Shown piece by piece: positions 13,083 to 41,599 of a stretch of DNA of 55,468 bases; the stretch's first letter is position 1, and each line of letters begins with the position of its first letter. Source of the stretch: a virus; IMG/VR virus record IMGVR_UViG_3300025401_000034, positions 1 through 55,468 of that record; one strand, given 5' to 3'. Both the position numbers and the translations under genes were made by a program. Below the pieces are notes generated by a model. It saw nothing but the letters and a program-made list of their open reading frames with translations. It was not told where the DNA came from and searched no databases.

Positions 13083-16000
13083 ATGGATTTGGATAAACTG
13101 TCGCTTGACGACCTGAAAGCCCTGCGCAGCAATAACCTTGACGCGATGTCCCTAGAAGGGCTTCAGTATTTAAAATCTGCACGTGCCCCAGCCGCACCAG
13201 AAACCCCACCAGATACAGGATTTACTGGCGCATTAAAATCTAGCGCTGAACAAATCCAAGCTGACTATGAGCGTATCAAGGGCAAGCTAGGCATTAAGCC
13301 TATTGAAGAAGCTGAAAAAGCTGCTCAAGAACACGAAGACAAAGCGCAAAAAGTATTTAAACCTACCGAAGAAGGTTGGTTAGAAGCTCCTTGGACTAAA
13401 TTAAAAGAGACTGCTGGCGGTTCGTTGCCATATATGGCGTTGCCTGTTGCAGCTGGTGCCGCTACCCTTGCTCTTCCTGAAGCTGCTGCTGCCGCTCCTG
13501 TGTTGGGTGGTCTTGCTACTGCTGGTGAAGCCCTTGGTATGGGCGCTGCCGGTTTAACTTCTGCAGCTCAGTTCACTGGTTCTAACTTATCCCGCCAAGT
13601 ACAAGAAGGCAAATCGTTACAAGAAGCTAGTTTAGGAAAAGCTGCATTAGCGGCTATACCGCAGGCTGCTATGGATGTAGTAGGGTTGAAATATATTCCT
13701 GGCATCCAAAAAATCTTTAAATCAGTTGGCCAAGATATTACCGAAGAAGCTGCCAAAAAGATGATGGAGCAAGGCATTCTTCGTACAGCAGGGCAATACG
13801 TTGCTGGCGGGGCTAAGATTGCTGGTATTGAAGGCGCGAATGAAGCTGGACAACAGTTCTTTGAACGTTTACAAGCTGGTTTAAATATTGCAGACCCAGA
13901 TGCTCGTAAAGAATATATTGATAACTTTATTGGCGGCGCTGCGTTAGGAGCTGTAGCTGCTCCGTTTGGTGTTCACGGCCATCGTGCGGATGCACGTTCT
14001 GTATTAGATAAAGCACAAGCTGCTCGCGATGAACAAGCGTTTAAAGAACAAGAAGAAGCAGATAAACAAACACAAGAAACAGCCGCAGCCCAAAAAGAAA
14101 TGCAAGGCATGGCCCCTAAAGGCCCAACGGAAGTTGATGTTGAAAGAGACAGAATTCGTTTAGATCGTTCAGCTGCGCAAATTACAGAACAAAAGCGCGT
14201 ATTAGAAGATAAATTAAACGAACTCCGCACCCAAGCCAGTGAAGAAACTGATTTAGGTAAGCTAGAAACAATTACTACAGAAGCGCAAAAGTACCATACA
14301 GCACTAGATGATCTTGATGGCGATAAAGTTAAGAGCCAAATGCAGTCTTTACACAAAGACACGCAAAGCTTACGTAAGCAACTTACCAAAGTTAAAGATG
14401 ATCCAGAGGCGGCTGCTGAGATTCAAGCTAGCATAGATAAAAATACAGCTCAATTTGATACGTTAGCTGAGCGCTTTGACGCAATTGAACACGCTAACAA
14501 AAAAACTGCAACGGCAGAAGAGCTTGACAAACAACTAGCTAAAAAGCAAAAAGAGCTTGATAAAGCCAAAGAAACTGGTGACTTGCAATCTATGGGCAAA
14601 ATCATTGCCTCTATGAAAGCGTTGCAAGAGCAACATCCTGGTGATATTACCAAACAGCAAAGTTTGTTTGAAGGTGAAGGCGAAGATAGAACTTACCCTG
14701 AATATCAGAAACGTCTAGCCGCTGAACAGCGTGCGCGTGAAGCTAAGTCACAGGAAGTCCTAGACCAAGAAGCCATCCAGAACCAACAGCAGCAAGAGAT
14801 TGAACAATCTACCGGTGAGAAACCAAAACTTGCTAAATATAAAGAAGAAATGACGTCGGAGGAATATACCGACTTATTAGCACATAAACTAGTTGACCTG
14901 CATACGCGCCCAGACACACACGTACCTGCTCCTTTATCTCCTGCACAAAAAGCAGCGGAGACTAAGCGTGTAAATGCTATCAATGCAGCTAAAGTAGAGT
15001 TTGAGGCTAAGAATAAAGAATACCAAGATTTAATATCTCAAGTTGACGAGCAAGGCGGTAGGGGTAGAGCAATATACACAGCCCGTGGTGACGTAGCTGC
15101 TATGGGTAAAAAATTAGCGGAGGCCAAAAAAGCAGTAGATGCAGCTAAAGCCAAAATGATTGGCGCTATTCCTGATGGTACTAAAACTGTAGTTGAGTCT
15201 GGCCGTGCTAGCGAAGCAGCACAAGATGTACACCTTTTAGACCTAACAGACACTATAGATAGTATGCGTAAGGGCGAATGGTTTGGTGGTGCAAATCCCA
15301 AAGCCGCATCAAGTATGTTGAGCACTTTAGCTACAAAAGCGCGTAGTTCGTTAGATAAGTATATCCAAGCAACAGTAAGTAACATTAACTATACGCGTCT
15401 AGCTAAGGGGATGGACCGTCTTAGCGAAGCTGAAAAAGAAATTATTGTTAAACATATTGATATCTTAATGGGCCATAAGATTGAACGTGCTACTGGTAAA
15501 AAAGCTAGTGCAATGGTTCTTGCTGAGCGCATTAAAAACCCCCTTAAAACAGATTTAGCTGATGTAGAAGCTAAAATGGAACCGCTTAGAAAGCAAGGCT
15601 ATACTGCAAAGTCATCGCCTGTTGTTTATGCGGCGTTAGAAAATAAAGCAAATGAAATCAAGGCCGCTATTGCTAAGGTAGATGCCGCTGTTGAAAATGG
15701 AACTATAGATCAGATAGCAAATCAGTATGGTATGGATACAACTTCTATGCCAAATGCTTTACGGAGAGCTGGTTTTAGAACTACAGAACAAGAAGTTAAA
15801 ACTGGTTTCCATAGAAACGAATACAAAGATGTTCAACGTGACATTGCGCAGCTAAAAGAACAGTATACTCAACCTGCAGCTAAAGAACGTGGCCGGTTAC
15901 AAAAAATAACACCAGAAGCCGCTAGCCAATATGCTGGGCAAAAAGCGCTTACACAACGCCAAGCACAGAAGAACGCTAAGGCGGCAAAGCCTGTTCAAGC

Positions 16001-19000
16001 TAAAACAGATCAAGAAATTACAGAAGCTCGTGAAAAAGCCGCTAAACAACAAACTGGTTTAGGTATAGAGTCTGGCGTTAAGAGAGAAACTGTTGCTCCT
16101 AAGGCTGGCTATACTGAAGCCGCTTTACCGCATGAATATAAGGCTGTTCAAGCCGCATTTAACTTTGCTAAGCAATATTACAAAGAGATGCTTTCGCGCC
16201 GGAGCATGGTTATGAATAAAAAACAGCGCGAGGCTTTAAAAGAAACACGTAAAAAATATAAAGAAGCACGAGTAAAACTTAACGAGTTGTTTAAAGATCA
16301 CAAGGTAAACCACCAAATAGCTCGAATTATGAATTGGCAAGTTACTGCCGATGAAAAAACACGTAATTACAGACGGGCCGATAACCTTATCTTAGGTATT
16401 GAAGAAAAGATGCAACGTCAAGCTGCAGCGCGGCAGCCTAAAGTAAAAACTACCGAATTTGGTCGTGTTGATGAAAAAGCTGAAGCGGAAATTCGTAAAG
16501 TAATTGGTCAGTATTCTGAAGAAGAAGTTGAAACGCCTAAGTCCCCGCCCGAAAAAGCAGCGGATAAAATTAGTGAAACTCAGCTAGCTGCGGTAAATAC
16601 AAAACTTAAAGAACGCCTTAAAGAAGTACGAGATCGTATTTATGGGCTTGGCATCCAAGCTAAAGAAGAAACTGCTGCCGAACGTGCAGCTTTGGCTAAA
16701 GAACAAACCAAACTAGAAGAACAAACAAAAGATATAGATAAAGTTTTGAGTGCCCGTCGTGTAGGTATGATAGTTGGCGAAGCCCAAGAAGAAAAAGGTG
16801 CTAAGCGGTATAAAGCTACTGACACCGAAAAGAAAATGGTTAAAGAAGGCAAGTTTAATAAAGCTGGAGTTGCGCCGCTTGTCTATGCCAACGTAGTTAA
16901 AACTGTACGCCAGATTGAATCTGAACGTGCCCAAGCTAAGCCAAAGAAAAAAGCAGCTCCGATAGCTAAGGCAGCTAGGGATAAGATTAAAGAGTTGGCT
17001 GCAGTTGAAGTTGACCTAGCGCATGCTAAAGATGCATCTGAAAAAGGTGTGTTGACCAAGCGCCGTAACGCATTGCAAAAAGAAATTGCAGAAGAAGCTA
17101 ATAAGAAAGCTAAGAGCTTAGCCGACTTATTCAAACAAGAGGCTGAAGAAGCTGGCATAGACGAAGACGCATTCTTTGAAATTGCTGATGATATGGAGGC
17201 TGGTGATTTTGAGCCACGTATTGGTCTTGGTAAGTCTTCTGGAATCCAGATGTTACGTTCTGCAGCTCAGGCTGTAGTAGATAAAATTAAGCTTCCAAAA
17301 GGGCTTAAGATGCACGTGGTTCAAGAGCTATCAGCTACTATGAAGAACTATATCCTCGAGCGGGGTCTTGATCCTGAGTTTACTAAGGGCTTTATCACAA
17401 AGAATGGTCACGTAGTTATCGTTGCTAGCGCTCATAAAACTGCAGGAGAAGTTGCTGAGACTATAGCGCACGAAGTTACAGGACACTTAGGTGTTGAGCA
17501 GGTGCTTGGCGAACAAGGCATGAAGTCTTTGGTAAATAAAATTACCAAGCAAGAAGGCGGTATTCAGCAGCTTGCTAACAAGCTGGGTGTTGGAGAAGAG
17601 GTTGCTGCAATCCGTAATGCTGCAATTACAGCGGGTGATACAGAGGCAGAAGCCGATGAAAAAGCTGTGCACGAAATGATTGCACATACCGCGGAGAAAC
17701 GCCCAACTAAAGACTGGGTAGCTAAGGCTAATGAATTTATTAAAGCGTTAGTCGGTGAATTTAGAACAGCTTTACGGCGCATGGGTATCAATCTAGATAC
17801 CAGCACATCTGACATTTACAAAATTCTTCGTGATGCACGTAAAGACTTTAAGGAAGTTAATCCTGGCGCGTATCGTGAAGCTAACGGTAATATTCAGTTT
17901 AGCAGCAAGCCTAAATTTAACGACAAGTTTAAGGACTTAGGTAGCGACGTTAGTAAAATTGTTCACGCTAATAAGACGACTAATGACAAGGTACGCGCAG
18001 TTGCTGCTGGCTTTAAAACTCCTAAAGACATTATTAAAACTGGGGGTATACTGTCCCCCCAAAACCGCCTAGCTCTGCGGACTCGTTATGTAGATAGATT
18101 TGCACCAATGGAAAAGGTAGCCGAAAAGCTTACCGCAAAACTGCAAAGCTCGCTTGAAGGCACTCAGTTGATGTACTACCTCCGTATGTTTGACCAAGGT
18201 ATTAACTGGGTAGCTCAGACTGCTTCGCACGGCCCAATGAGCATCATTGAAAAGAAACGCGCGGACGGTAAGCTCGAGCGCATTATCGAAACCAAAGATG
18301 GCGCCAGCCTTCTTAAAGTATCCCAGGCTCTTAAAGAAGCCGATGTGGGCGATGCTAATGCGGCTAACCAGTTGTTTACATTCTACTTGGCTGCTAAACG
18401 TGCTAAACGCGTGGGCTTAAATACCCTTAATTTTGGTGACGATGTTACCCAAGAGATGCTAGATAAGGTGACAAGTCGCATCAATTCCGATGCTAAAACT
18501 AAAGCAGCGTTTGAAAAAGCAGCTACTATCTACAACGAGTACAACAAAGGTTTGATTGAATTTGGTGTGCAGACTGGTCGATTCTCTAAAGAAGAAGCCG
18601 CAAAGTTGCTGAAAGAAAATGATTATGTTCCGTTCTATAGAATTGATAGGAGCGGTAATGTATCTCTAGATATTGGCGGAGCCAACCCAATTAGCATTGG
18701 TAACGTTAAAGACCAGCCGTATTTGCATGAGCTAGTTGGCGACAATAAGCCTATTCTTGACGTATTTACTAGCGCTTTGCAAAACACTCGCATGCTAACA
18801 GATATGGCTTTGCGTAACTTGGCGTCTCGTAATGCTGCATTTAGCTTGCAACAAATTGGTGGTTTAGAAACTAAAGTAACCCGCGCCGGTAAAGAATTTG
18901 GCTCTGGTATATACCAAGGTAAAGGCGAGGCTAACCCCAACGTTATTCGGTTTAAGATTGATGGCGTAGACCACCACGCTATTGTTGATACAGAGACTAT

Positions 19001-20561
19001 GGGAATCCCAGCGGACTTGCTGGTAAAAGGATTGGATGGCGTACAGGTTTCTATCCCTAATTTGGTTAAGGTTGCAGGGTACCCAGCCAAGTTATTGCGT
19101 TCATTTATTACCCGTAATCCAGCATACGCTATTCGTCAGATTGCACGTGACTCCTTATCTAACGCCTTTATAACTGGTGCTGATTCTATTCCTATCATTG
19201 ATAACATGAAGCAACTAGGCTCTATGCTAAAAGGCGTTAATGAGGGCGAATTGCTTTTAAAGAAACGCGGTATCCTTGGCGGGCAAGTTTTAGGTAACGC
19301 TTCAGATGCTATGCAAAAAGCTATGCTTCAGATTATTGATGGCAAACCAGGTTGGGAAAAAGCTATGGCCTACCTAGACCACGTTGCTATGATGGGCGAT
19401 GCGTCTTCCCGTGTTACTTCCTATAATAGCTTTGTTAAGCAAGGTTTGTCTGATATGGAAGCCACGTTAGCATCTTTAGAAGCCATGAACTTTAGCAAGA
19501 AGGGTACATCACCTAGCTTGTATTTGCTTAACCAAATGGTTCCATTCTTAAATGCGCAGATTCAAGGTATGGATGTTCTTTATAAAGCCTTTGCTGGTAA
19601 GATGCCGTTTGCTGACAAGCTAGATATTAAGTCTAAGATTTGGAAACGCGGTGCTATGATGGCTGCATTTACTATGGCGTACACAGCTATGTCATACGAC
19701 GATGACGACTACAAGAACGCAACAGCGGCTGAAAGAATTGGTAACTGGTTTATTAAAGTGCCAGGAATTGACGAGAAAGTTAAAGTACCTATTCCATTTG
19801 AAGTTGGCGGTATATTCAAGATGCTTCCTGAAATGCTTTACTCAACAGCATTTAAAGACAAGAAGCTTAGCGAAGCGGCTGCAGAAACATCTAAGTATGT
19901 TGTGGATAACTTTATTCCATCCTTTATGCCAACAGCCATTAAACCTGTAATTGAAATGGGAGCTAATTACTCATTCTTTACTGGTAAACCTATTGAAAGC
20001 CAGCGCTTAATGGAGCTAGCTCCAGGCCAACGCGCATATGCAAATACGCCAGAGGCATTAAAAGCCCTTGGCGAAGCGACTAACATTTCACCAGTAAAAA
20101 TGGAGTATTTATTACGTTCCTATACTGGTTCGTTCCCATTAGCTATGATGGCCTTGGCAAATCCAGTTTCAAGTGGGGCTGAAGCCCCCGAAGGGCGCGG
20201 CGCATTAAGCAGCACAACCCCAGTTATTGGCGCGTTTTTCCAGCCTAAAGATGCAAACGGTTTAATTGATAAAGCTTACCAGCAAATGCAGGATGTAATT
20301 CAAGCTGATAGGACATTCAAAAACTACATTGAAAGTGGGCGAGACGAAGAGGCTGAAGCGTTCTTAACTAAAGAAGCTGATCTACTTGGTATGGCTACCT
20401 TCTCAGGAAACTTTAGAAAGCAAATGGGAGATTTAGCTAAACAAGAACGCGCTATTCGTTCTATGACTGGTATTACTGGTGCTGAAAAACGTAAGATGCT
20501 AGACGATATTAAAGAAGCTAAGATAGAAATATCAAAAGCGTTTATCAGCGCACGCGAGTAA
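13083..20561 (+). CDS. Giant polyvalent virion/ejection protein (2492 aa)
   Basis: This single gene covers 7.5 kb. The N-terminus has a helical repeat (LSLDDLKALRSNNLDAMSLEGL) and an Ala-rich hydrophobic stretch (about 115-160). Residues about 300-1350 are largely charged coiled-coil with many Lys/Glu/Ala heptads. Around 1460 lies AHEVTGHLG (His1463), a metallopeptidase-like signature with one residue more than HExxH. The C-terminal ~900 residues are less charged and contain FITRNPAYAIRQIARD, typical of large polyvalent proteins of phages. The likely role is an internal protein injected with DNA; protease activity is only possible. The end overlaps the convergent gene by 17 bases. Confidence 0.75.
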   Translation: MDLDKLSLDDLKALRSNNLDAMSLEGLQYLKSARAPAAPETPPDTGFTGALKSSAEQIQADYERIKGKLGIKPIEEAEKAAQEHEDKAQKVFKPTEEGWLEAPWTKLKETAGGSLPYMALPVAAGAATLALPEAAAAAPVLGGLATAGEALGMGAAGLTSAAQFTGSNLSRQVQEGKSLQEASLGKAALAAIPQAAMDVVGLKYIPGIQKIFKSVGQDITEEAAKKMMEQGILRTAGQYVAGGAKIAGIEGANEAGQQFFERLQAGLNIADPDARKEYIDNFIGGAALGAVAAPFGVHGHRADARSVLDKAQAARDEQAFKEQEEADKQTQETAAAQKEMQGMAPKGPTEVDVERDRIRLDRSAAQITEQKRVLEDKLNELRTQASEETDLGKLETITTEAQKYHTALDDLDGDKVKSQMQSLHKDTQSLRKQLTKVKDDPEAAAEIQASIDKNTAQFDTLAERFDAIEHANKKTATAEELDKQLAKKQKELDKAKETGDLQSMGKIIASMKALQEQHPGDITKQQSLFEGEGEDRTYPEYQKRLAAEQRAREAKSQEVLDQEAIQNQQQQEIEQSTGEKPKLAKYKEEMTSEEYTDLLAHKLVDLHTRPDTHVPAPLSPAQKAAETKRVNAINAAKVEFEAKNKEYQDLISQVDEQGGRGRAIYTARGDVAAMGKKLAEAKKAVDAAKAKMIGAIPDGTKTVVESGRASEAAQDVHLLDLTDTIDSMRKGEWFGGANPKAASSMLSTLATKARSSLDKYIQATVSNINYTRLAKGMDRLSEAEKEIIVKHIDILMGHKIERATGKKASAMVLAERIKNPLKTDLADVEAKMEPLRKQGYTAKSSPVVYAALENKANEIKAAIAKVDAAVENGTIDQIANQYGMDTTSMPNALRRAGFRTTEQEVKTGFHRNEYKDVQRDIAQLKEQYTQPAAKERGRLQKITPEAASQYAGQKALTQRQAQKNAKAAKPVQAKTDQEITEAREKAAKQQTGLGIESGVKRETVAPKAGYTEAALPHEYKAVQAAFNFAKQYYKEMLSRRSMVMNKKQREALKETRKKYKEARVKLNELFKDHKVNHQIARIMNWQVTADEKTRNYRRADNLILGIEEKMQRQAAARQPKVKTTEFGRVDEKAEAEIRKVIGQYSEEEVETPKSPPEKAADKISETQLAAVNTKLKERLKEVRDRIYGLGIQAKEETAAERAALAKEQTKLEEQTKDIDKVLSARRVGMIVGEAQEEKGAKRYKATDTEKKMVKEGKFNKAGVAPLVYANVVKTVRQIESERAQAKPKKKAAPIAKAARDKIKELAAVEVDLAHAKDASEKGVLTKRRNALQKEIAEEANKKAKSLADLFKQEAEEAGIDEDAFFEIADDMEAGDFEPRIGLGKSSGIQMLRSAAQAVVDKIKLPKGLKMHVVQELSATMKNYILERGLDPEFTKGFITKNGHVVIVASAHKTAGEVAETIAHEVTGHLGVEQVLGEQGMKSLVNKITKQEGGIQQLANKLGVGEEVAAIRNAAITAGDTEAEADEKAVHEMIAHTAEKRPTKDWVAKANEFIKALVGEFRTALRRMGINLDTSTSDIYKILRDARKDFKEVNPGAYREANGNIQFSSKPKFNDKFKDLGSDVSKIVHANKTTNDKVRAVAAGFKTPKDIIKTGGILSPQNRLALRTRYVDRFAPMEKVAEKLTAKLQSSLEGTQLMYYLRMFDQGINWVAQTASHGPMSIIEKKRADGKLERIIETKDGASLLKVSQALKEADVGDANAANQLFTFYLAAKRAKRVGLNTLNFGDDVTQEMLDKVTSRINSDAKTKAAFEKAATIYNEYNKGLIEFGVQTGRFSKEEAAKLLKENDYVPFYRIDRSGNVSLDIGGANPISIGNVKDQPYLHELVGDNKPILDVFTSALQNTRMLTDMALRNLASRNAAFSLQQIGGLETKVTRAGKEFGSGIYQGKGEANPNVIRFKIDGVDHHAIVDTETMGIPADLLVKGLDGVQVSIPNLVKVAGYPAKLLRSFITRNPAYAIRQIARDSLSNAFITGADSIPIIDNMKQLGSMLKGVNEGELLLKKRGILGGQVLGNASDAMQKAMLQIIDGKPGWEKAMAYLDHVAMMGDASSRVTSYNSFVKQGLSDMEATLASLEAMNFSKKGTSPSLYLLNQMVPFLNAQIQGMDVLYKAFAGKMPFADKLDIKSKIWKRGAMMAAFTMAYTAMSYDDDDYKNATAAERIGNWFIKVPGIDEKVKVPIPFEVGGIFKMLPEMLYSTAFKDKKLSEAAAETSKYVVDNFIPSFMPTAIKPVIEMGANYSFFTGKPIESQRLMELAPGQRAYANTPEALKALGEATNISPVKMEYLLRSYTGSFPLAMMALANPVSSGAEAPEGRGALSSTTPVIGAFFQPKDANGLIDKAYQQMQDVIQADRTFKNYIESGRDEEAEAFLTKEADLLGMATFSGNFRKQMGDLAKQERAIRSMTGITGAEKRKMLDDIKEAKIEISKAFISARE

Positions 20562-20736
20562 ACCAAACGCCTATCTTACCGTCCTTGCGCCCTATCTCTG
20601 CCTTGGCTTGTACTCGGTGGTAAAGGGCGGCTTTTAAACCGTTTACCTTTACCTCCTCGAACTTTAATGTAGGAACAAAGAAGCCCCCATGAGCGGGGAC
20701 TTCTAACCACGGGTAGTGCACCTTAATCTTCCTCAC
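20545..20736 (-). CDS. Small hypothetical protein
   Basis: A 63-residue basic protein (KVHYPWLEVPAHGGFFVP, then VQAKAEIGRKDGKIGVWFTRVR). The start is GTG and overlaps the end of the primase-helicase gene by 14 bases, suggesting translational coupling. Its stop overlaps the 3' end of the convergent giant gene. It is the last gene of the leftward block. No family recognised. Confidence 0.55.
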   Translation of the reverse strand: MRKIKVHYPWLEVPAHGGFFVPTLKFEEVKVNGLKAALYHRVQAKAEIGRKDGKIGVWFTRVR

Positions 20737-23581
20737 TTATCACCAATGGGCGTGTGATTCTAATTACGTTAACTCGCATTGATGGACCTCTAGTCTTAGC
20801 CAGCATATCTTTGCGCATGTACCCAATCTTGTAATTAGGCAATGATTCGAGCTCTTTCTTTAAGTCGGAGTAACCGTAACTCATAGTAGAGCAATGCTGT
20901 TTAAGAAGCTGTTCTTCAATGTAGTAGTCAACATGCCCTGGGGTCATCTCATGCTCAACCCTTCCAGCCACATCCGACCTAGTTAGCGACTGGTCAATCT
21001 CGTTATGCCCACCTAGGGTAGCTTTGGTAATTCCGTCAATGGCTTTAACAACCACAAACTTACCGTAGCACTCACGGGTGTAGGCGTTAAGAACATCCTC
21101 AGCGGAACGGCGATTGCCTCGCACAGCCGCTCTAGCCTCGTTAACCATTCCACGAAGCGTCTCAATAATTGGACGGATAGGTACATCAATAATGTTTGCG
21201 TATTTTTTACCCATAAGGATCACTATAGCTACGATGGCGGCATTACCAGCAGTCCAATAACGCTCGTCATCTGATGAATTAAATTCCGCTTTTAACTTCT
21301 CGCGGGTCTCGTTGTACACCTGTACTGCTGTTTCTCTATTGCGGACAATCCAGCGAATCAATTCACGACCTACGACACCGTAATTTGATTTCAGAATATC
21401 TACCGTACTGCTCTCAGTTGAGGATGCCCATTGAACTTCCTTGGCTGGTTTAACTTCTAACATACGAAGCATCTCAGCTTGGGATGTGTGCTTACGCCCC
21501 CCTGATAAGAAGTCATAAATGTGAGTGTTGCTTGAAAACAACACCATCAAGTTCCACACAGTAGTATTTAACCGCTCCTTATTGGCGCCTTGTTCCATGC
21601 GCTCTTTGCCCTTACCTTGAGTTAAGTCTAGTAAGAACTGGGGCAGCCACTCAAATGACTCGCGGTTCTTGTTGGTAATCTCGTCCATTACAAGCGGCAG
21701 GCTATTTAATAGGCCCTGTCTTTGCTGTGCAGCTACTGCTGAAGTCGATTGCGTAACCCTGTAGAGCTCTGGATGACCCCAAAAACTAGCTGCAAGGGCT
21801 AGGGCAAGCGACTTACCACGACCTGAGCCCGAAGACCCAAGGTGATAAACAACGCCCCTAAAGCCCGAGAAGTGCATCAGAATCGAAGCAGGACCTACCA
21901 TACCCATGGTGACAATCTCCCATAGCTCCTTGGCAATGTACATATTAAGGACTTTCTTCCATTCCTCAATGGTGCCCATTGGTTTAGTAGCGTAGTTGAC
22001 GTTAGCCATTCCTGGGGTTGGAACATAAAGCTCCTTGCCATCAGGGGAGAAGATAGTGCTGTCATACACAAATGAGTTGTCTTCTTGCCAACCACAACTA
22101 TGAGGAACCTTAACCGCTACCTTGTTAGAGCTGGCATATTCCACACAACCACGGATGTACTCATATAAGTGAACGTCGTTGCCCTTGCCGTAGACCGCAA
22201 TAATATTGTGGCTAGCTAGCATCTTTACCGTTTCGTCCTTACTTACTGCCGATTTTTGCGGCATGATGATATCCGAAGTACCATTTGGGCGGCAGACTAC
22301 CATGTGGATAAGATGCTCATCGCCGTTATTTAGGATGTCAACAACGAACAAGTCGTAAGGCAAAATCATTACCTGCTTCTTAACCTTCTCGCCACCTTCT
22401 TCCTCAACTACCTTGTCGATAAATATCCCGCCATTTGCCCCATAGCTAAATCCGCGTGGCGGAATTGGGCGCGTAATCATTATCTGCTCGGCTGGTTTAG
22501 TATCAGTAGCCGCTTTAGTTTCAACAATGATTTCTTTTGGCTTGTTATCGACCTTGATCTCACGACCTAAAGCTAGCGGATTAGTAATCTTTCCAAAGTG
22601 TGGGCAACCTTTACAGACCCCTGGATTTGCCTCGTCAAGCTTCAAGCAGCTGTATGGTCCTTTGATTTGGTTCCACTTGGTGTTGTGGCGATCCATATCG
22701 TAGGGGTGCATGGCGGATAAAGCTTGACCTTCTTCCTCACCATCTTCGCAGTACTTAGCTATGCTGAGGATACCCCGCCACAAAGGTTCCATGCCGTCAT
22801 CTTTAGCGTGCTCTATGTAATGATTAATCTGCTTACATTTAGGCGCAAGATTTTTGAAGAACGTAATGCTGTTCTCTACCATCTTGACGTTTGATGCCGT
22901 GCCTTTTAAGTCTGGACGTTTTCCAGGAAGGTCAAATTTTGGAAGCAGCTCATGGGAATCTTCCCCGACTTTTTCTTTGATGACCGTAGCTAATGCCTCA
23001 AACTCAAAGGTTGTACCAACCACCTTAATAGATACAGCCCGTGGCTTTTCTTGCTTGTAGTTCTGTGTATCAGGAACGCGTAATACCCGAGCGGCATCGC
23101 CAGTAACCATAGCGTCAATATTCAAGCCCTCTTTCTTACATAAGCGCTTGAGGTTCTCTGCTACTGGTTTCCATGTAGCTATATCTACTTCTTCTGTGAA
23201 TGGCCAGTATACGTGCAGTCCACCGCCACTAGATACGACGTATGGGGTTCCGAGGCTATCTAACGAAGTTTCAGACAAAAATGTCCCCAGTGCCGCTGCT
23301 GCCGCCTGTTTATTAGGATAATCCTTTCCTTCTCCACAATCAATATCCAAGAATAAAGATTTTATTTTTACTGCGTTTGTAGCTAAACGCTTGCCGCTTG
23401 TGTTAAATGATGCTAGTGCATAAAAAGCATTAAGCCCTTCACCGCTAAAGTGTGCAGCGTTGCTATACAGTTCATCAATCGTATCAACAAATACGTGTTC
23501 TTTTTTTGCTGTGCTTAGTTCGCAGGCGCAATACTTACCCGAAGACGGAAGCACAGTCGCTAGGAATTCCTGCGACTTCAT
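20723..23581 (-). CDS. Primase-helicase (AEP-like primase plus P-loop helicase)
   Basis: A 952-residue two-part replication protein. The N-terminal part has archaeo-eukaryotic primase-like motifs FLDIDCG (Asp79, Asp81) and SSGGGLHVYWPF (Ser118, His123). A Cys cluster follows (C312, C323, C326, in a PGVCKGCPHFG context). The C-terminal part resembles DUF927-type helicases: Walker A GSSGSGRGKS (582-591) and Walker B LPLVMDEI (628-635). It should synthesise primers and unwind DNA at the fork, with the phage polymerase encoded upstream in the same leftward block. Confidence 0.85.
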   Translation of the reverse strand: MKSQEFLATVLPSSGKYCACELSTAKKEHVFVDTIDELYSNAAHFSGEGLNAFYALASFNTSGKRLATNAVKIKSLFLDIDCGEGKDYPNKQAAAAALGTFLSETSLDSLGTPYVVSSGGGLHVYWPFTEEVDIATWKPVAENLKRLCKKEGLNIDAMVTGDAARVLRVPDTQNYKQEKPRAVSIKVVGTTFEFEALATVIKEKVGEDSHELLPKFDLPGKRPDLKGTASNVKMVENSITFFKNLAPKCKQINHYIEHAKDDGMEPLWRGILSIAKYCEDGEEEGQALSAMHPYDMDRHNTKWNQIKGPYSCLKLDEANPGVCKGCPHFGKITNPLALGREIKVDNKPKEIIVETKAATDTKPAEQIMITRPIPPRGFSYGANGGIFIDKVVEEEGGEKVKKQVMILPYDLFVVDILNNGDEHLIHMVVCRPNGTSDIIMPQKSAVSKDETVKMLASHNIIAVYGKGNDVHLYEYIRGCVEYASSNKVAVKVPHSCGWQEDNSFVYDSTIFSPDGKELYVPTPGMANVNYATKPMGTIEEWKKVLNMYIAKELWEIVTMGMVGPASILMHFSGFRGVVYHLGSSGSGRGKSLALALAASFWGHPELYRVTQSTSAVAAQQRQGLLNSLPLVMDEITNKNRESFEWLPQFLLDLTQGKGKERMEQGANKERLNTTVWNLMVLFSSNTHIYDFLSGGRKHTSQAEMLRMLEVKPAKEVQWASSTESSTVDILKSNYGVVGRELIRWIVRNRETAVQVYNETREKLKAEFNSSDDERYWTAGNAAIVAIVILMGKKYANIIDVPIRPIIETLRGMVNEARAAVRGNRRSAEDVLNAYTRECYGKFVVVKAIDGITKATLGGHNEIDQSLTRSDVAGRVEHEMTPGHVDYYIEEQLLKQHCSTMSYGYSDLKKELESLPNYKIGYMRKDMLAKTRGPSMRVNVIRITRPLVISEED

Positions 23582-27573: not shown

Positions 27574-27689
27574 CTTATTCTCCAGTACCTGTCCTTCGGG
27601 TTATTAAGCATTGCTTTAATAAGCTCATCTGTATTAAAGAACCATTGAATAACTTTCATGCCATCATGCTGCACGATTTCAAAGCTCAT
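27570..27689 (-). CDS. Tiny protein, paralogue of the one at 55.1 kb (39 aa)
   Basis: A 39-codon gene with ATG overlapping the upstream MazZ-like stop and its own TGA overlapping the next start as GTGA. The product shares MSF-x-I-x-QHDGMKVIQWF and then MLNNPKDRY with a 43-residue gene near the right end of the window. Conservation of an almost identical 12-residue core in two distant places indicates a real protein. Function unknown. Confidence 0.65.
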   Translation of the reverse strand: MSFEIVQHDGMKVIQWFFNTDELIKAMLNNPKDRYWRIR

Positions 27690-28138
27690 TCCATGTACTC
27701 CTTTGGTGGGCGATCATCGCCCTCGGGGTATGTTTTTGCATACAAAGTTAGCATGCGGATATTACACATCACATGTGCTAAGTGCGGTTGACCTGACTCA
27801 GGATCTATCTCTTCTCCGCGTTGCCACGCAGCTAAGTGTCGCATAGCACAAGCATAAGGCACAGACCAAGGCATTCCTTTAGCCCAGTTCCATGCATTGT
27901 ATTTTTTAGTGCCGTAGTCCCACACCCTAGCTTCATCTTCTAAAGTCCACAAGGGTATCAAACTCATGTTAGGTTTGTTGCTGTTATATCTAGCACCCGA
28001 ACCTTTAACAGTACTATTAACATCACCAATACCTTCTAATGGTGTTGCAGTAAATGAACCGTCTTTTTCTTTAACTACTAATACCGTATCATCTGAGAAC
28101 CAGCTATATTCTGTTCCCGCTCCTTCGTTTGGCATCAT
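27686..28138 (-). CDS. MazZ-like dATP/dGTP pyrophosphohydrolase (DUF5664 type)
   Basis: A 150-residue protein. Its core (GARYNSNKPNMSLIPLWTLE, EARVWDYGTKKY, MRHLAAWQRGEEID, ESGQPHLAHVMCN) matches the all-alpha MazG-related family that converts dATP or dGTP to monophosphates. In 2-aminoadenine (Z) phages this activity supplies dGMP and depletes dATP. No PurZ is present in the window, so this more likely serves nucleotide pool control. An AAGGAGG site sits one base before the first ATG, so translation may start at the second ATG (28135). Confidence 0.7.
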   Translation of the reverse strand: MMPNEGAGTEYSWFSDDTVLVVKEKDGSFTATPLEGIGDVNSTVKGSGARYNSNKPNMSLIPLWTLEDEARVWDYGTKKYNAWNWAKGMPWSVPYACAMRHLAAWQRGEEIDPESGQPHLAHVMCNIRMLTLYAKTYPEGDDRPPKEYME

Positions 28139-36094: not shown

Positions 36095-36592
36095 TTAGTT
36101 TCCTAGTGGGATTGGGGAGACAATAACTCGAGGCTCTACATAAATTACTTTTGGCTTACCACTCTTAGGGTCTACGCACTGCACCCATGTTCCATCAGCA
36201 GATGCTGGGGAATACAAACCATTAGGGTCAGCCTGTGGCAATACATAAATGCTCCCGCCATCGGTTGTACGCTGTGGCATTTGTGGGTTGGTGTATTGAG
36301 TCGCGTAAGGTAAGCCATATCCTACTGAGTTACATAGCTTATGAAGATCACCATTCATGCCTACAATATAAGTTGTTGTGGCTACATCTTGGTCACGAAT
36401 TTCAAGGATGTCTTTCATCATGCGCTTCTCAGCAAAGTTCACAATGGCTGGCATACCTACCTGAGTTATTGCTTGTAGGCTCATTTCTCCTTGCTTTTGT
36501 CGTTCGATTTGAGCCGCTGTTTGTGATGCAGTCTGAGGACCACATGCAGTCAATACACTTGCTACTGCCAATAATAGAAAAATCTTTTTCAT
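36095..36592 (-). CDS. Putative lipoprotein (165 aa)
   Basis: The product starts MKKIFLLLAVASVLTACG, a textbook signal peptide with lipobox LTAC (Cys17). I chose the ATG at 36592 because it puts the signal peptide at the N-terminus and lies two bases after the upstream stop; an in-frame ATG upstream would bury it. The mature part has helices then a beta-rich Gly/Pro end. Envelope location is expected; function unknown. Confidence 0.65.
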   Translation of the reverse strand: MKKIFLLLAVASVLTACGPQTASQTAAQIERQKQGEMSLQAITQVGMPAIVNFAEKRMMKDILEIRDQDVATTTYIVGMNGDLHKLCNSVGYGLPYATQYTNPQMPQRTTDGGSIYVLPQADPNGLYSPASADGTWVQCVDPKSGKPKVIYVEPRVIVSPIPLGN

Positions 36593-36593
36593 T

Positions 36594-36929
36594 TTATTTT
36601 CCTTGTTTGAGTTGATTGTAAAAACTGCGTAGGTTATAAGGCAAACGGTTCTCGTCATAAACACTAAAGCGATGCAATATGATTGCGCGTAATGCTAACT
36701 TGTGGTCGGCATCTGCGTTCATATACTCCATCTGCAAATTTTCTAGGTCACGAATCATACCATCGTTGTATTGCTCTGACTCTTTAAACACCTTGTTCTC
36801 TGTTGCTCGATACTTAGGTGCAAAGTAATCGTATGAAGCCCAGCCTAAATAAGACAAGCCGCAGATTAACGATACAAAAGCTACTAGCCCAACCGCACTA
36901 CTAAATGCTACTTTAAAAAACTCCTTCAT
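36594..36929 (-). CDS. Membrane protein with N-terminal anchor
   Basis: A 111-residue protein with a membrane segment at about residues 9-32 (SSAVGLVAFVSLICGLSYLG) and a helical periplasmic or cytoplasmic C-terminal region. It sits next to the lipoprotein gene and may form an envelope pair with it. Function unknown. Confidence 0.55.
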   Translation of the reverse strand: MKEFFKVAFSSAVGLVAFVSLICGLSYLGWASYDYFAPKYRATENKVFKESEQYNDGMIRDLENLQMEYMNADADHKLALRAIILHRFSVYDENRLPYNLRSFYNQLKQGK

Positions 36930-37108
36930 ACTTCCTCCCTTTTATCCAATGATTCTTTAATTGACATAGCCATGTCTACCATAGCCAATGCCCGTTTAAC
37001 TTCATGCACCTTGCCAGCGATAAAGCCAGCCTCCCACTCTTTGCTGACTAAACCGCTAGCCATATACTCATCGTAGGTTTTGGGTATTACTTTTTCTTGT
37101 TCGCTCAT
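36926..37108 (-). CDS. Small hypothetical protein
   Basis: A 60-residue charged helical protein (TYDEYMASGLVSKEWEAGFI). It overlaps the ATP-grasp gene by four bases and the membrane protein gene by four. Function unknown. Confidence 0.5.
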   Translation of the reverse strand: MSEQEKVIPKTYDEYMASGLVSKEWEAGFIAGKVHEVKRALAMVDMAMSIKESLDKREEV

Positions 37109-37878
37109 ACAACCTCCTTAATTGCTTGAACATATTTATGCACAGTCGAACCCTCTAGACCGCACGCGGTATTAACTTCCAAAACAAAACATCTATCTAA
37201 CCCTTCACTCCATATAACATCTACTGCACCGAAGTCTAGACCTAATGCACTAACGGCAGATGTAGCCACGCCCCTAAGATCATGAGGTTCTTCGATATCA
37301 CCCCGACAAAAGACATACCCGTTTGCATGGTTTCGAATATAAGGGTGGTGGTCAGCAACACTAGAACTCCTACGCTTTTCTTGTATGTCAATAATTTTAC
37401 TATTAAATACATGGACTCTAAACTCCTTTTGTTTGCGTATGTATTTGGTATACAACGGGGCGTCTACTAACTGATCGTGTTGCTTGGCTACAACAATACC
37501 CTGACCTGAGTGAGCAGACAGAAGGGTGCGACACATAACCTTGTGCCCGTTGTCTATCCATTCTTTTGCTACATCTATACTGCCTGTGAATACAGGGCAC
37601 GGCACATTGTTAAACGCTAAGCCCGTTAGAGTAGTCCATTTGTTAGCCGCTTTAGATACAGCAGTTGGATGATTGAGAATACGACAGCCCCCCTCATAGT
37701 CCACGCCACTACTACCCCAGTTAATAACGATACGACTAGGCTTGCACAAGGCTACCCGCTCAGGCTGAATGAATAAAACATTGCGACCCAGCTCTTGCGT
37801 TAGTGCATCACGCAGTAACCTTGCACTTCTACTGCCCCGCTTGTATGGGGCTATGGCTACCCTTGATGTGTTTGTCAT
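37105..37878 (-). CDS. ATP-grasp carboxylate-amine ligase
   Basis: A 257-residue ATP-grasp fold enzyme. Seen are a substrate-side N-domain, the nucleotide-binding loop region (MCRTLLSAHSGQGIVVA, 115-131), the EFRVHVFN strand (152-159), and the metal-binding C-terminal part (DFGAVDVIW, 215-223; FVLEVNTACG, 231-240). ATP-grasp ligases activate a carboxylate with ATP and join it to an amine. It lies 0.7 kb downstream of a GATase II gene and 2 kb from an amidoligase gene, on the same strand, suggesting a shared pathway. Substrate unknown. Confidence 0.85.
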   Translation of the reverse strand: MTNTSRVAIAPYKRGSRSARLLRDALTQELGRNVLFIQPERVALCKPSRIVINWGSSGVDYEGGCRILNHPTAVSKAANKWTTLTGLAFNNVPCPVFTGSIDVAKEWIDNGHKVMCRTLLSAHSGQGIVVAKQHDQLVDAPLYTKYIRKQKEFRVHVFNSKIIDIQEKRRSSSVADHHPYIRNHANGYVFCRGDIEEPHDLRGVATSAVSALGLDFGAVDVIWSEGLDRCFVLEVNTACGLEGSTVHKYVQAIKEVV

Positions 37879-37879
37879 A

Positions 37880-38101
37880 CTATTTGTGCTCCCTTAATGT
37901 AACTTCGTGATCACCCATATCAACAGACATACGCCCATCGGGGTGTAACTTTAATTCAGCTTCGCCCTTTGCAACAGACTCAATGATCATGCAAAGTATT
38001 ACTCCTCCTTTCATAGCCTTGCGTAAGTTAGTATGAAAATAGCCCGCCGCAATTGTAGCCACGCAAGCCCATGCCAATAAAAACAATTCACTCAATTCCA
38101 T
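37880..38101 (-). CDS. Small membrane protein in ligase cluster
   Basis: A 73-residue protein with an N-terminal membrane segment (ELFLLAWACVATIAAGYFH) and a short charged C-terminus (HPDGRMSVDMGDHEVTL). It is one base from the ATP-grasp gene and inside the ligase cluster. Function unknown; it could anchor or receive the product. Confidence 0.5.
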   Translation of the reverse strand: MELSELFLLAWACVATIAAGYFHTNLRKAMKGGVILCMIIESVAKGEAELKLHPDGRMSVDMGDHEVTLREHK

Positions 38102-38405
38102 ATGCCACCTCTTCTAAGTTTTTAATTTGCTTAAGCAGATCCCGTATCTGCTCTTCGTTTTGATACCTGAATACATCGGTAGTTAGCCCAGTTGAATAGT
38201 CTAAGTAGTATTCATCATCATCTATAAATCTAATGACAGCTAGCTCATAAGGGGCATGTGCGTTGTCACGCATGAATGTTAAGTCCCCACCCCACACAAT
38301 ACTAGCCCCATAGTTATTAGGGAATTTATATATGCGTTGGGTTGCACTACCTATGTTTAGGTGAGGTCTTTCGACCTTGATGTGTTCTTCATGATACTTC
38401 TTCAT
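38088..38405 (-). CDS. Hypothetical protein in ligase cluster
   Basis: A 105-residue alpha-beta protein (GASIVWGGDLTFMRDN; DEYYLDYSTGLTTDVF). Its ends overlap both neighbours. A compact soluble domain with no recognised motif, located between the ATP-grasp and GATase genes. Confidence 0.5.
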   Translation of the reverse strand: MKKYHEEHIKVERPHLNIGSATQRIYKFPNNYGASIVWGGDLTFMRDNAHAPYELAVIRFIDDDEYYLDYSTGLTTDVFRYQNEEQIRDLLKQIKNLEEVAYGIE

Positions 38406-38595
38406 CTAACCACCCTCCTTCTAGTGCTTCTTTCTTTGTGTATGTAGCGTAGTGTTCGTAGTTGTCGCTTTGATATGCAAACTTCCAACCATCAGGCGAT
38501 TCGTATGAAATTTTCTCTGCTCGTTCTTTTGTGTCAGCAACAACCCGCTTAAATTCAAAACGAGTTGCCGCAGTTATTACATAAAATACAGCCAT
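38389..38595 (-). CDS. Small hypothetical protein in ligase cluster
   Basis: A 68-residue protein with an N-terminal strand (AVFYVITAATRFEF) and a basic helix. Starts 9 bases after the GATase gene and overlaps the following gene by 17 bases. Function unknown. Confidence 0.5.
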   Translation of the reverse strand: MAVFYVITAATRFEFKRVVADTKERAEKISYESPDGWKFAYQSDNYEHYATYTKKEALEGGWLDEEVS

Positions 38596-38604
38596 ACTAC
38601 CTCC

Positions 38605-39774
38605 TTAGTTAATTGCTAAACGCTCAGGCTTGGTGCGCTCAAGCCAAGGGAATGCCTCGCGTGCTAACGCAAAGTCTGTGATGATACGCTCATACCAACC
38701 GCTATCAATCATGTCATCTAGCGCCATGTAAGACACCTCCATGAAGTTGTCGATACCGAACTTCTCAACGAACTCATACGCAGACACACGGCTGATATGC
38801 TGGATCTCGAACTGCGCCTCGATCTCTAACAACAAGTCCTCCATTACATCGTCAGCCTCTTGAGCTGATACGCCATACACCTCGGTGCGAGCAACGCCAT
38901 CTTCGCCAACAACTGAATACTCTGCGTCAACGAAGTCGCTATCGTCATCACCTAAGCCACCGACAGGGGGCACATACACAGGGCGATCATACTGCTGGGC
39001 TTGCTTACCCCATGTGCCAGTCTTGCTGTCATACTTCTCCCAATAGTCTTCGTCATCGTATGCCTCGTAGCCAGTCATATAACCCGTAGACCATTTCTTG
39101 TAGCTACTATTGGCAGACTTATACGATGGCTTGTATGGTGCTGCCTCGATCTCGTCAATGGCTAAGTCGTGGTCGTCTTTGAAAGTCTTAGATGCATTGA
39201 GCGGACTAGACCATGCATAAGTATTAGATAACCAACGACCGCCCCAAAATACACCAGCGTCTTGATTGACAGTCTGAGTGCGACCATTGCTATCCATGAG
39301 CACGAACTTATTAGACCCGCCGATATGATCGCCAATGATGTCAGCAAACGCATCGGTAAATATAAAGTCAATGTTGTTGGCAAGCATAGGGCGCAAGTAG
39401 TCACGGATGTAGTGCCATGTATCTGACTTGGTTGTGTCGCCCGCATTACCTGTGGACAAGATGCCGTTGTGCATGAGCCATACATCTACACCGTGCTCGG
39501 CTTTGTTGAACACCTCATACGGGTGGCAATTCTCCATGTCGATATTGCCGTGGGTTTTCATACGCAAGTGGAACGCGCAGTCATGTCCGTCAATATGGTT
39601 GCGATAGAAATCTACAAACTCCTGTGCGTTTTTGGGTAATATTTTTTCTATCAGGAGTTCCCCTTCTACGCTACGCATAATACCAACGCCGTCAGAGTTA
39701 GACGCATAGAAATCCTCGAGCCATGCTTGAGTTAATGAAGGGGCTGTTGCTGGTTGAACGACTAATAAACACAT
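38605..39774 (-). CDS. Class II glutamine amidotransferase-like protein
   Basis: A 389-residue protein with the N-terminal nucleophile GATase fold. Met1-Cys2 would expose Cys2 after Met removal. Fingerprint motifs are NSDGVGI (26-32), FHLRMKTHG (68-76), CHPYE (83-87) and MHNG (101-104). It should release ammonia from glutamine. The ~200 C-terminal residues are acidic and not recognised. An AAAGGA site precedes the start. It is sandwiched between amidoligase and ATP-grasp genes, which fits ammonia supply for amide-bond formation. Confidence 0.85.
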   Translation of the reverse strand: MCLLVVQPATAPSLTQAWLEDFYASNSDGVGIMRSVEGELLIEKILPKNAQEFVDFYRNHIDGHDCAFHLRMKTHGNIDMENCHPYEVFNKAEHGVDVWLMHNGILSTGNAGDTTKSDTWHYIRDYLRPMLANNIDFIFTDAFADIIGDHIGGSNKFVLMDSNGRTQTVNQDAGVFWGGRWLSNTYAWSSPLNASKTFKDDHDLAIDEIEAAPYKPSYKSANSSYKKWSTGYMTGYEAYDDEDYWEKYDSKTGTWGKQAQQYDRPVYVPPVGGLGDDDSDFVDAEYSVVGEDGVARTEVYGVSAQEADDVMEDLLLEIEAQFEIQHISRVSAYEFVEKFGIDNFMEVSYMALDDMIDSGWYERIITDFALAREAFPWLERTKPERLAIN

Positions 39775-39814
39775 ATGATTTCCTTTATTTAGATTGTTTT
39801 GTTTGTATTACTTG

Positions 39815-39830
39815 GGACAGGTTTCTGTCC
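39815..39830. repeat. GGACAG-N4-CTGTCC palindrome, copy 1
   Basis: Reads GGACAGGTTTCTGTCC on the plus strand. In leftward transcripts it starts two bases after the amidoligase stop and 41 bases upstream of the GATase start, and could fold as a six-base-pair hairpin with a four-base loop. Confidence 0.8.
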
Positions 39831-39832
39831 GC

Positions 39833-41485
39833 TTAGGCTTCGGTTGTGTGAAGTTGCTTGGTTTGCTCAATGCGTGGGTTGGGCTTGACCACCGCTTGTT
39901 TATCTAGCATGAAGCCCTTAGACCGCAAGAATGACCGTAGATAGATGGTGTCCTTGCGTTGGTCGGGTTGGCAGATAAACTTGATAAAGTTCTCGGAGGT
40001 TAAGTCTTGTTGCCCTGTGTCACGAGTAAAGAACCATGAGGCATATGTAAACTCCAAGCAAGCCATGATGGTCTCGTAGCGTAGCGTGCCCTTGAACAGG
40101 CGGAACTCGACTGTGCGTTCGGGTTGGAAGTTGACTGACTCATAGCGATCCTCGTTGAGCCTACGCATACCGTCTGACTTAGCGTGCTTGACCCATGAAT
40201 AGTCAGCCGTCTTGTTCTTGACTTGGCTATATCTACTAGAGTCACGGCGTGCGATAGCTTTGAACAGGCGTTGATTACGGCTGTCGTGCATGAACAAGAT
40301 TAACTTAGCGGCATGGAACATAGACATACCCTTCTTACAGATATGCACATGAAGACCGCAAGTCTTGGTATCGTGCGACTTCATGCCCTCAAATGGTTTC
40401 TTGAAGAACGATAACTGCTTGGCATGAACATCAAGACCCGTATAGCCTGTGACCATCTCGAAGCCGTGATTAAGTGAGCCGTCTTGCTCGAGCAGTGCAT
40501 AGGTATAGTGCTTGCCTGTCGCATCGTCTTTGTATTCCTTGACCGATTGTAGTAAGTGCTCAGCACGCTCACGCCGTGAGGCATCGCCGTCAGACATCTC
40601 CATCTCTAGCTCTAAGCCCATATACACAGGGGTTTTTCTAAGAGAGTATTTGGTTGGGATGAACCCTAGCTTGGACTTACTACTGTGATAGCTACCGATC
40701 GGACCGACATCTTCTTCATCCTCATCGTCATCATCTTGATCAGGCTCATCGTCATCCTCGTGCACCACGCAGTCATGGTAGTCAGACCAGCGATAGTTAT
40801 TGTCACGACAATCTGAGCAAATCCAGCGATCGCCGTTGTATACCCATGTGCCATCGTCCTCGCACTCGATGTAGTCGCAGTCAGAACAGTAGTTATAGTC
40901 GGGTGCGTTGGGGAATTTGTCGACATCATTGAGTATCTCGCACCACTCACCAGCACCTAGTTTGTCCCTGATAGTGGTGTTGTCGTTGAGGATACTAACT
41001 AGCTCGCTGTCGTCTTGAGTGCGGAAGCAGTCGGCTATCATCTTGCCGATCTCGTAGAAGTGACGGCGCTGGTTCATAAGACTCTCGTAGTGGCGTTTCT
41101 CAGAGCCACCGATATAAATGCGATACGATCGAATGTTTCTCTCCATATTGCGCTTGAGTTGCCCCTTGGCGATGGATAGATACTCAGACCTTGTCCATAA
41201 CTCTGGACGGCGCACATGCTCTAGCTTGTATCGTAAGAACTCGGTGAGCAGAGGCTTTTGTGAATCTCTTGCTCGGTTGTATTGTGTTTCTACTGCGTTG
41301 ATTTGTGCTGATGTGTATGTTGGTGTTGGCATGGTTTGATATGCTCCTGTGATGGTTGATGTTGCGTAAGTGTATGTGTCTACTGCGGTTGATGTGGTTA
41401 AAGGGTTTGGTATGGTTGTCCATGTGACTGGATTTTCGGGGGTGGTGTAATAAATAACCCCCTCATTTGATAGCCTTGTTGTCAT
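39833..41485 (-). CDS. Putative amidoligase (PF12224-like)
   Basis: A 550-residue protein. The N-terminal 180 residues are helical. A four-Cys zinc ribbon (C200, C203, C223, C226) follows, then an acidic linker (about 243-260). The C-terminal catalytic part has GLELEME (290-296), EQDGSLN (333-339), TCGLHVH (375-381) and RTVEFRLFKGTLR (457-469). These are the glutamine-synthetase-like metal-binding motifs of amidoligases. Such enzymes form amide bonds and often neighbour GATase-like or ATP-grasp genes. Both are present here. Substrate unknown. Confidence 0.85.
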   Translation of the reverse strand: MTTRLSNEGVIYYTTPENPVTWTTIPNPLTTSTAVDTYTYATSTITGAYQTMPTPTYTSAQINAVETQYNRARDSQKPLLTEFLRYKLEHVRRPELWTRSEYLSIAKGQLKRNMERNIRSYRIYIGGSEKRHYESLMNQRRHFYEIGKMIADCFRTQDDSELVSILNDNTTIRDKLGAGEWCEILNDVDKFPNAPDYNYCSDCDYIECEDDGTWVYNGDRWICSDCRDNNYRWSDYHDCVVHEDDDEPDQDDDDEDEEDVGPIGSYHSSKSKLGFIPTKYSLRKTPVYMGLELEMEMSDGDASRRERAEHLLQSVKEYKDDATGKHYTYALLEQDGSLNHGFEMVTGYTGLDVHAKQLSFFKKPFEGMKSHDTKTCGLHVHICKKGMSMFHAAKLILFMHDSRNQRLFKAIARRDSSRYSQVKNKTADYSWVKHAKSDGMRRLNEDRYESVNFQPERTVEFRLFKGTLRYETIMACLEFTYASWFFTRDTGQQDLTSENFIKFICQPDQRKDTIYLRSFLRSKGFMLDKQAVVKPNPRIEQTKQLHTTEA

Positions 41486-41488
41486 ACC

Positions 41489-41599
41489 CTACCCCCTAAA
41501 CAACAGAACTACTAGATAACGAACTACTTGAGCTACTATAAAAATACTGCAAAGCAATAAAGCTATACGGCTATACAACTCAAACCTGTTGTAATTCAT
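41489..41599 (-). CDS. Tiny membrane protein upstream of amidoligase (36 aa)
   Basis: A 36-residue single-span membrane protein (ALLLCSIFIVAQVVRYLVVL). An AAAAGGAGG ribosome site lies five bases before the ATG, and its TAG lies three bases before the amidoligase ATG. The strong site and spacing support translation. Function unknown. Confidence 0.6.
   Translation of the reverse strand: MNYNRFELYSRIALLLCSIFIVAQVVRYLVVLLFRG

Follow-up and report, generated by a model that had tools for sequence, protein, structure and literature searches.

A mosaic cassette of predicted amidoligase, glutamine amidotransferase and ATP-grasp enzymes in a freshwater phage

What do three putative amide-bond-forming enzymes make when a phage encodes them side by side? 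The question is raised by virus record IMGVR_UViG_3300025401_000034, which was analyzed over its whole length of 55,468 bp (the window). It is a tailed phage, as its genes for DNA polymerase A, terminase, portal and DNA ejection show; the ejection protein points to a podovirus-like one, and the source is freshwater. An initial annotation had read the locus as a candidate unknown modification system, comprising an amidoligase, a class II glutamine amidotransferase (GATII) with an exposed Cys2, an ATP-grasp ligase and five small open reading frames (ORFs), arranged on one strand almost without gaps. This layout and every quoted motif were recovered. The kind of enzyme set is already known, and the novelty lies in its architecture. 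The window phage clade is a mosaic, in which an amidoligase–GATII core is combined with an ATP-grasp from another module type. The three enzymes are encoded as follows.

39833–41485, minus strand: amidoligase of family PF12224, with a glutamine synthetase/gamma-glutamylcysteine synthetase (GS/GCS) fold; 550-aa ORF with the motifs GLELEME, EQDGSLN, CGLHVH and RTVEFRLFKGTLR
38605–39774, minus strand: GATII; MC at the N-terminus, followed by NSDGVGI, NCHP and HNG
37105–37878, minus strand: RimK-like ATP-grasp ligase of 257 aa, matching phrog_2599

The amidoligase scored 23.8 bits against PF12224, above the gathering cut-off of 22. Its predicted parts are an all-helical N-terminal domain, a CxxC...CxxC zinc ribbon (200-CSDC...CSDC-226 in the numbering of the 550-aa ORF), an acidic linker and a catalytic domain that carries ExE, DGS, HxH, R, N and ExR. 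Twelve residues (G290, E292, E294, D335, S337, E343, H379, H381, R414, N452, E460 and R462) did not vary among 25 sequences with identities as low as 15%, and the active site appears intact. Structures were modelled with AlphaFold2 (AF2) on alignments built from IMG/VR loci only. The amidoligase model reached a predicted local distance difference test score (pLDDT) of 81, and Foldseek gave significant E-values in the PDB only to GS/GCS-superfamily proteins: a YbdK-like ligase (1tt4, the best match, E 5e-6), gamma-glutamylmethylamide synthetase (GmaS), glutamine synthetase and PafA/Dop. The matched structures lack equivalents of the helical N-terminal domain, the ribbon and the acidic linker, which accounts for the low TM-scores. 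A PDB search by sequence returned chance-level matches only. Translation probably starts at 41332 (499 aa) rather than at 41485, since a 98% identical relative starts there; a plausible ribosome-binding site also precedes 41485.

Identification of the other two enzymes came from family profiles, as their single-protein Pfam matches fell below curated cut-offs. For the GATII, PF13230 gave 14.9 vs 23 bits and PRK00331 gave 14.8 vs 381, yet the reverse search with a GATII family profile reached the glutaminase domain of GlmS in the PDB at 4e-17. The protein is thus best described as a predicted divergent GATII-like domain. It is predicted to comprise an N-terminal nucleophile (Ntn) glutaminase domain at approximately residues 1–200, followed by a linker of low complexity and a C-terminal tail of helices; no synthase domain was recognized in it. 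Cys2, R, THG, NxHP and HNG are kept, with M1, C2, H69, R71, T74, G76, N82, H84, P85, H102, N103 and G104 invariant. The ATP-grasp matched phrog_2599, a phage ATP-grasp family, at 1.3e-71, and its nearest solved relatives in a PDB profile search were RimK-type glutamate ligases (4e-11). It shares their catalytic residues: K80, R117, E152/R154/H156, R182, D220 and E234/N236 are conserved in more than 80 homologues. It differs from them in being shorter, in belonging to a phage-specific family and in scoring below the Pfam RimK and TIGR00768 cut-offs (for the latter 5e-11, 42.4 vs 143.4 bits). An R2K label was rejected on score (PF14243, 16.7 vs 26.3; PF18299, 14.2 vs 26.2).

Given the PF12224 score, the phrog_2599 and GlmS matches and the invariance of key residues in diverse relatives, the motif set of the cassette is not due to chance. 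The profile and structure checks proposed in the initial annotation bore out the amidoligase family and fold, and placed the GATII and ATP-grasp below their single-protein Pfam thresholds. The view that the three belong together and have intact active sites was also supported.

Such a module is not new. The amidoligase module of phiEco32-, LUZ24- and RIO-1-like phages has been predicted since 2009 (Iyer et al. 2009; Hardies et al. 2013). Papers that cite these two studies present it as a gene set with a proposed role in modifying the cell wall or peptidoglycan and in preventing superinfection. Published phage genomes label it a peptidoglycan-modification cassette, so 'unknown system' was too strong a label. 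Annotated neighbourhoods in phages with the ATP-grasp contain a PF14395 ligase, amidoligase, GATII, ATP-grasp and, in most cases, GGCT. The canonical module shares with the window the same kinds of enzyme, the order amidoligase, GATII, small ORFs, ATP-grasp, and an early gene region. The window ATP-grasp is a true member of that module's ATP-grasp family, which tblastn found in 310 phage records, among them phiEco32, LUZ24, PA11, CVT22 and RIO-1.

There are also differences. In canonical IMG/VR contigs whose flanks were long enough, the ATP-grasp had an amidoligase, a GATII and PF14395 beside it in 35/35, GGCT in 22/35 and a C26-like glutamine amidotransferase (GATase) in 24/35. In the window clade, amidoligase and GATII were present in all 13 contigs holding the ATP-grasp, and PF14395, GGCT and C26 in 0/13 each. 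The proposed co-occurrence of the three genes in related phages was thus found in both settings. Whole-record searches of the window and seven relatives (43–67 kb, four from the window's own clade; records not certified complete) likewise found no PF14395, GGCT or peptidase C26, and the positive controls worked. The canonical amidoligase and GATII are only 12–20% identical to those of the window, and the branch between them is long and has full support. The cassette was accordingly not counted as a canonical module, as PF14395, GGCT and C26 were not found and the amidoligase and GATII group elsewhere. The C26-like class I GATase, frequent in canonical modules beside GGCT (e.g. L045:3423–4046), is seldom mentioned in the literature searched.

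The zinc ribbon also changes partner. It was found on the amidoligase in 22/22 two- and three-gene phages vs 0/68 canonical ones, and on the GATII in 32/54 canonical vs 1/18 two- and three-gene proteins, counts that include some near-duplicate rows; the frequency among all ORFs of that size was 107/593. In the initial annotation, the ribbon, the acidic linker and the small proteins had been put forward as parts that may define the substrate. The ribbon appears more credible than the small proteins as a specificity or docking part, given its conservation and its place on the partner enzyme in the majority of canonical modules.

Where, then, does the cassette come from? The ATP-grasp nests within the canonical family (support 100/98 and 98/98) as sister to those of canonical contigs L045 and L046 (100/98), and canonical ATP-grasps were non-monophyletic in 100% of bootstrap trees (rooted tree, with a long outgroup branch). 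The window amidoligase and GATII cluster instead with those of two-gene phages (support 100), separated by long, fully supported branches from the canonical proteins; these trees came from a quick search with support from the Shimodaira–Hasegawa-like approximate likelihood ratio test (SH-aLRT) only. The discordance is visible in identities to L045 alone: 53% for the ATP-grasp, 20% for the amidoligase and 12% for the GATII. Gene order agrees. In L038 and L022, two members of the broader group to which the window phage belongs, the GATII is followed directly by the small ORF s73 and the gene w35782, whereas the window clade has an ATP-grasp segment between s73 and w35782. Gain of the ATP-grasp in the window clade would be a simpler reading than its loss in L038 and L022, since two-gene lineages surround the three-gene clade. 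Of the three genes presented as one unit, the amidoligase and GATII thus form the core, to which the ATP-grasp was added from the other module type.

This core belongs to a divergent two-gene subfamily found in mycobacteriophage Marvin, Methylophilales phage MEP402, integrative elements and bacterial prophages. Order, adjacency and the ribbon on the amidoligase are the same there, without the ATP-grasp and small ORFs that the window clade adds. The GATII directly follows the amidoligase in all subfamily phage contigs long enough to tell. When a genome collection was scanned, 24 bacterial contigs proved to encode the amidoligase, including three Polynucleobacter isolates (45–49% identity), Pelistega, Ruminococcus and Eggerthellaceae. 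A Polynucleobacter-like host is plausible for the window phage. The GATII came immediately after the amidoligase in 21 of the 24; one contig was truncated, and in two (L140 and L141) no GATII was detected. No ATP-grasp was seen within the flanks of any of the 24. Nine bacterial genomes searched whole contained no module-size phage-type ATP-grasp and gave partial matches only, inside reading frames of 745–856 aa. Several bacterial copies of the pair adjoin integrases, recombinases or relaxases. The adjacency of the two genes in bacteria without a module-size ATP-grasp, close to such mobility genes, identifies the pair as a minimal, independently mobile unit.

Two Polynucleobacter elements carry further genes of note. 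In L127 (7860–13613) and L128 (7860–13640) the pair lies in an integrase- and relaxase-bearing element directly followed by a SIR2-HerA anti-phage locus (PADLOC matches in L127: SIR2 3e-85, HerA 1e-176). L129 has the same integrase–pair–relaxase layout, with an unrelated 416-aa protein (10771–12018) in the SIR2-HerA slot. This protein had no Pfam, PHROG or PADLOC match and is a candidate defence or cargo gene of unknown type. PADLOC gave no defence-family match for the three window enzymes.

Could the genes simply be unrelated morons that came to lie side by side by chance, sharing no pathway? Separate gain of the ATP-grasp would fit this idea, but amidoligase and GATII stay adjacent in phages and in different bacterial phyla, and two divergent settings link the ATP-grasp family to an amidoligase and GATII. 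We regard it as highly improbable. A bolder but still doubtful proposal is that the pair is a stand-alone mobile glutamine-dependent amide synthase common to phages and integrative elements, among them the Polynucleobacter elements with SIR2-HerA. It would write an undescribed amide mark on a host molecule during conflict between mobile elements, and ATP-grasps would have been coupled to it more than once to give different products.

We instead give a slight overall preference to a third reading, in which the cassette is a reduced mosaic variant of the known amidoligase/GATII/ATP-grasp module, a split amide synthase plus ATP-grasp that would modify a host peptide-like molecule or protein. The gene set, the catalytic residues, the tight amidoligase–GATII pairing, the mosaic origin and the failure to detect PF14395, GGCT and C26 are results of the analysis, whereas the ammonia transfer, reaction order, substrate and purpose that follow are inferred. 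The GATII would hydrolyse glutamine to release ammonia. With ATP and metal, the GS-fold amidoligase would activate a carboxylate, to be converted to an amide by that ammonia, so that the pair would act as a split glutamine-dependent amide synthase. The RimK-like ATP-grasp would form a second amide bond, adding an amino acid (glutamate-like, by analogy to RimK) either to that substrate or to one linked with it. Whichever core partner carries it, the zinc ribbon may dock the partners or recognize the substrate. The product would be a modified host peptide-like molecule, such as a peptidoglycan precursor or surface peptide, or a host protein, made during takeover; superinfection exclusion is a plausible purpose.

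Several points weigh against this preferred reading. In the literature searched, no biochemical or experimental test of any module member was found. The published peptidoglycan proposal is itself an inference, made for modules with PF14395, GGCT and other enzymes that are missing here, and the cassette contains no peptidoglycan-specific gene. No fused amidoligase–GATII protein occurred among the collected ORFs. The AF2 model of the GATII, one of the structures the initial annotation had hoped to inspect, was poor (pLDDT 57) and unusable for the Ntn fold or an ammonia route. By our subjective estimate, an envelope peptide or murein precursor as substrate approaches an even chance, a protein is a lesser prospect, a small gamma-glutamyl-type metabolite is rather unlikely and DNA is improbable.

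Three rival readings name other targets. The first is protein tagging, in which the RimK-like ATP-grasp and the pair would not act on a cell-wall peptide but would attach amino acids or amides to a protein of the host, such as the ribosome, RNA polymerase or a receptor. The RimK-type glutamate ligases closest to the ATP-grasp suggest it, as does the resemblance of the amidoligase fold to PafA/Dop (Pup ligase and depupylase). A protein-target role has also been proposed for R2K ATP-grasps, which are present in some phages (PMC4431377). The window ATP-grasp is not R2K by score, however, and retains the usual ExN motif. Moreover, the genes have no conserved neighbour that could serve as target or tag peptide, and RimK chemistry is not core to the system, as most two-gene relatives lack the ATP-grasp. 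Protein tagging is an unlikely reading.

A small-molecule role is less probable again. Here the module would synthesize or degrade gamma-glutamyl amides formed with amines or polyamines, and these would serve as a resource or for protection. The amidoligase fold matches to gamma-glutamylmethylamide synthetase and the YbdK-like ligase fit this role, and canonical modules add GGCT and the C26-like class I GATase, which are gamma-glutamyl-handling families, at the frequencies given above. None of these two, nor the gamma-glutamyl-type ligase PF14395, was found in the window or near-complete relatives, and they are therefore not needed here.

DNA hypermodification through an amide bond, resembling CmoX/CmoY, appears very unlikely. 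Amide ligation to phage DNA has been shown for another type of ligase, which joins glycine to 5-carboxymethylcytosine (PMC12783734), and the cassette does lie on the early or replication gene strand. However, CmoY is an asparagine-synthetase homologue (PMC12783734), from a different family than the cassette enzymes. The window has no DNA carboxymethyltransferase, and neither a C5-methyltransferase nor a thymidylate-synthase-type gene was detected in it or in the seven relatives searched.

The remainder of the cassette consists of small ORFs.

41489–41599, minus strand: 36-aa hydrophobic ORF upstream of the amidoligase, predicted from sequence
38389–38595, minus strand: s68, 68 aa, confined to the window phage clade
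38088–38405, minus strand: s105, 105 aa, phrog_4074 (7e-20)
37880–38101, minus strand: s73, 73 aa, with one hydrophobic N-terminal segment
36926–37108, minus strand: s60, 60 aa, overlapping the ATP-grasp stop by 4 bp

In the direction of transcription the order is 36-aa ORF, amidoligase, GATII, s68, s105, s73, ATP-grasp and s60, with intergenic gaps of 58, 9 and 1 bp and otherwise small overlaps. Most of these ORFs look incidental. The s105 family is present outside such a module in unrelated Listeria, Bacillus and Pseudomonas phages, and s105 is probably a hitchhiker. Only in the window clade do s68 and s105 lie between GATII and s73, and neither was detected beside the amidoligase–GATII pair in outgroup phages. 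A further small protein, s111, is confined to one lineage, and s60 sits within the ATP-grasp segment, which separates s73 from w35782 and is missing from L038 and L022. The small proteins were rejected as substrates, s105 being a general phage family, s111 restricted to one lineage and s60 part of the ATP-grasp segment; the suggestion that they may define the substrate was likewise unsupported. The best candidate accessory part among them would be s73, which also adjoins the GATII in two-gene relatives L021, L022 and L038, as it is the sole small protein kept with the pair in phages without the ATP-grasp.

Other window genes were also noted. A predicted lipoprotein (36095–36664, minus strand; phrog_24725, a signal followed by LTAC) lies a few genes downstream of the ATP-grasp. 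A 952-aa primase/helicase-like replication protein (20723–23581, minus strand) matched the LigD-type prim-pol family PF21686 weakly, below cut-off, and DUF927 (PF06048) above it. On the structural gene strand, a 2492-aa protein (13083–20561, plus strand) had phrog_9854 and phrog_18222 matches near its C-terminus. A protein with a dATP/dGTP diphosphohydrolase N-terminal domain (27686–28138, minus strand) matched PF18909 at 5e-29; members of this family are known in phages whose nucleotide pools are altered. Close IMG/VR relatives of the window reach 64–67 kb.

The amidoligase module is present in hundreds of sequenced phages, including those of E. coli and Pseudomonas, and the question of its substrate has stood since 2009. 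PF14395, GGCT and C26 are dispensable, in that the window clade and the two-gene relatives persist without them. This points to the amidoligase–GATII pair, which persists alone, as the smallest set suited to expression and assay. One ATP-grasp family has been coupled independently to two amidoligase–GATII lineages that differ greatly, and this is evidence for a single pathway shared by all three. In the window clade, nature can be regarded as having run a deletion and recombination experiment by which the amidoligase–GATII core is isolated.

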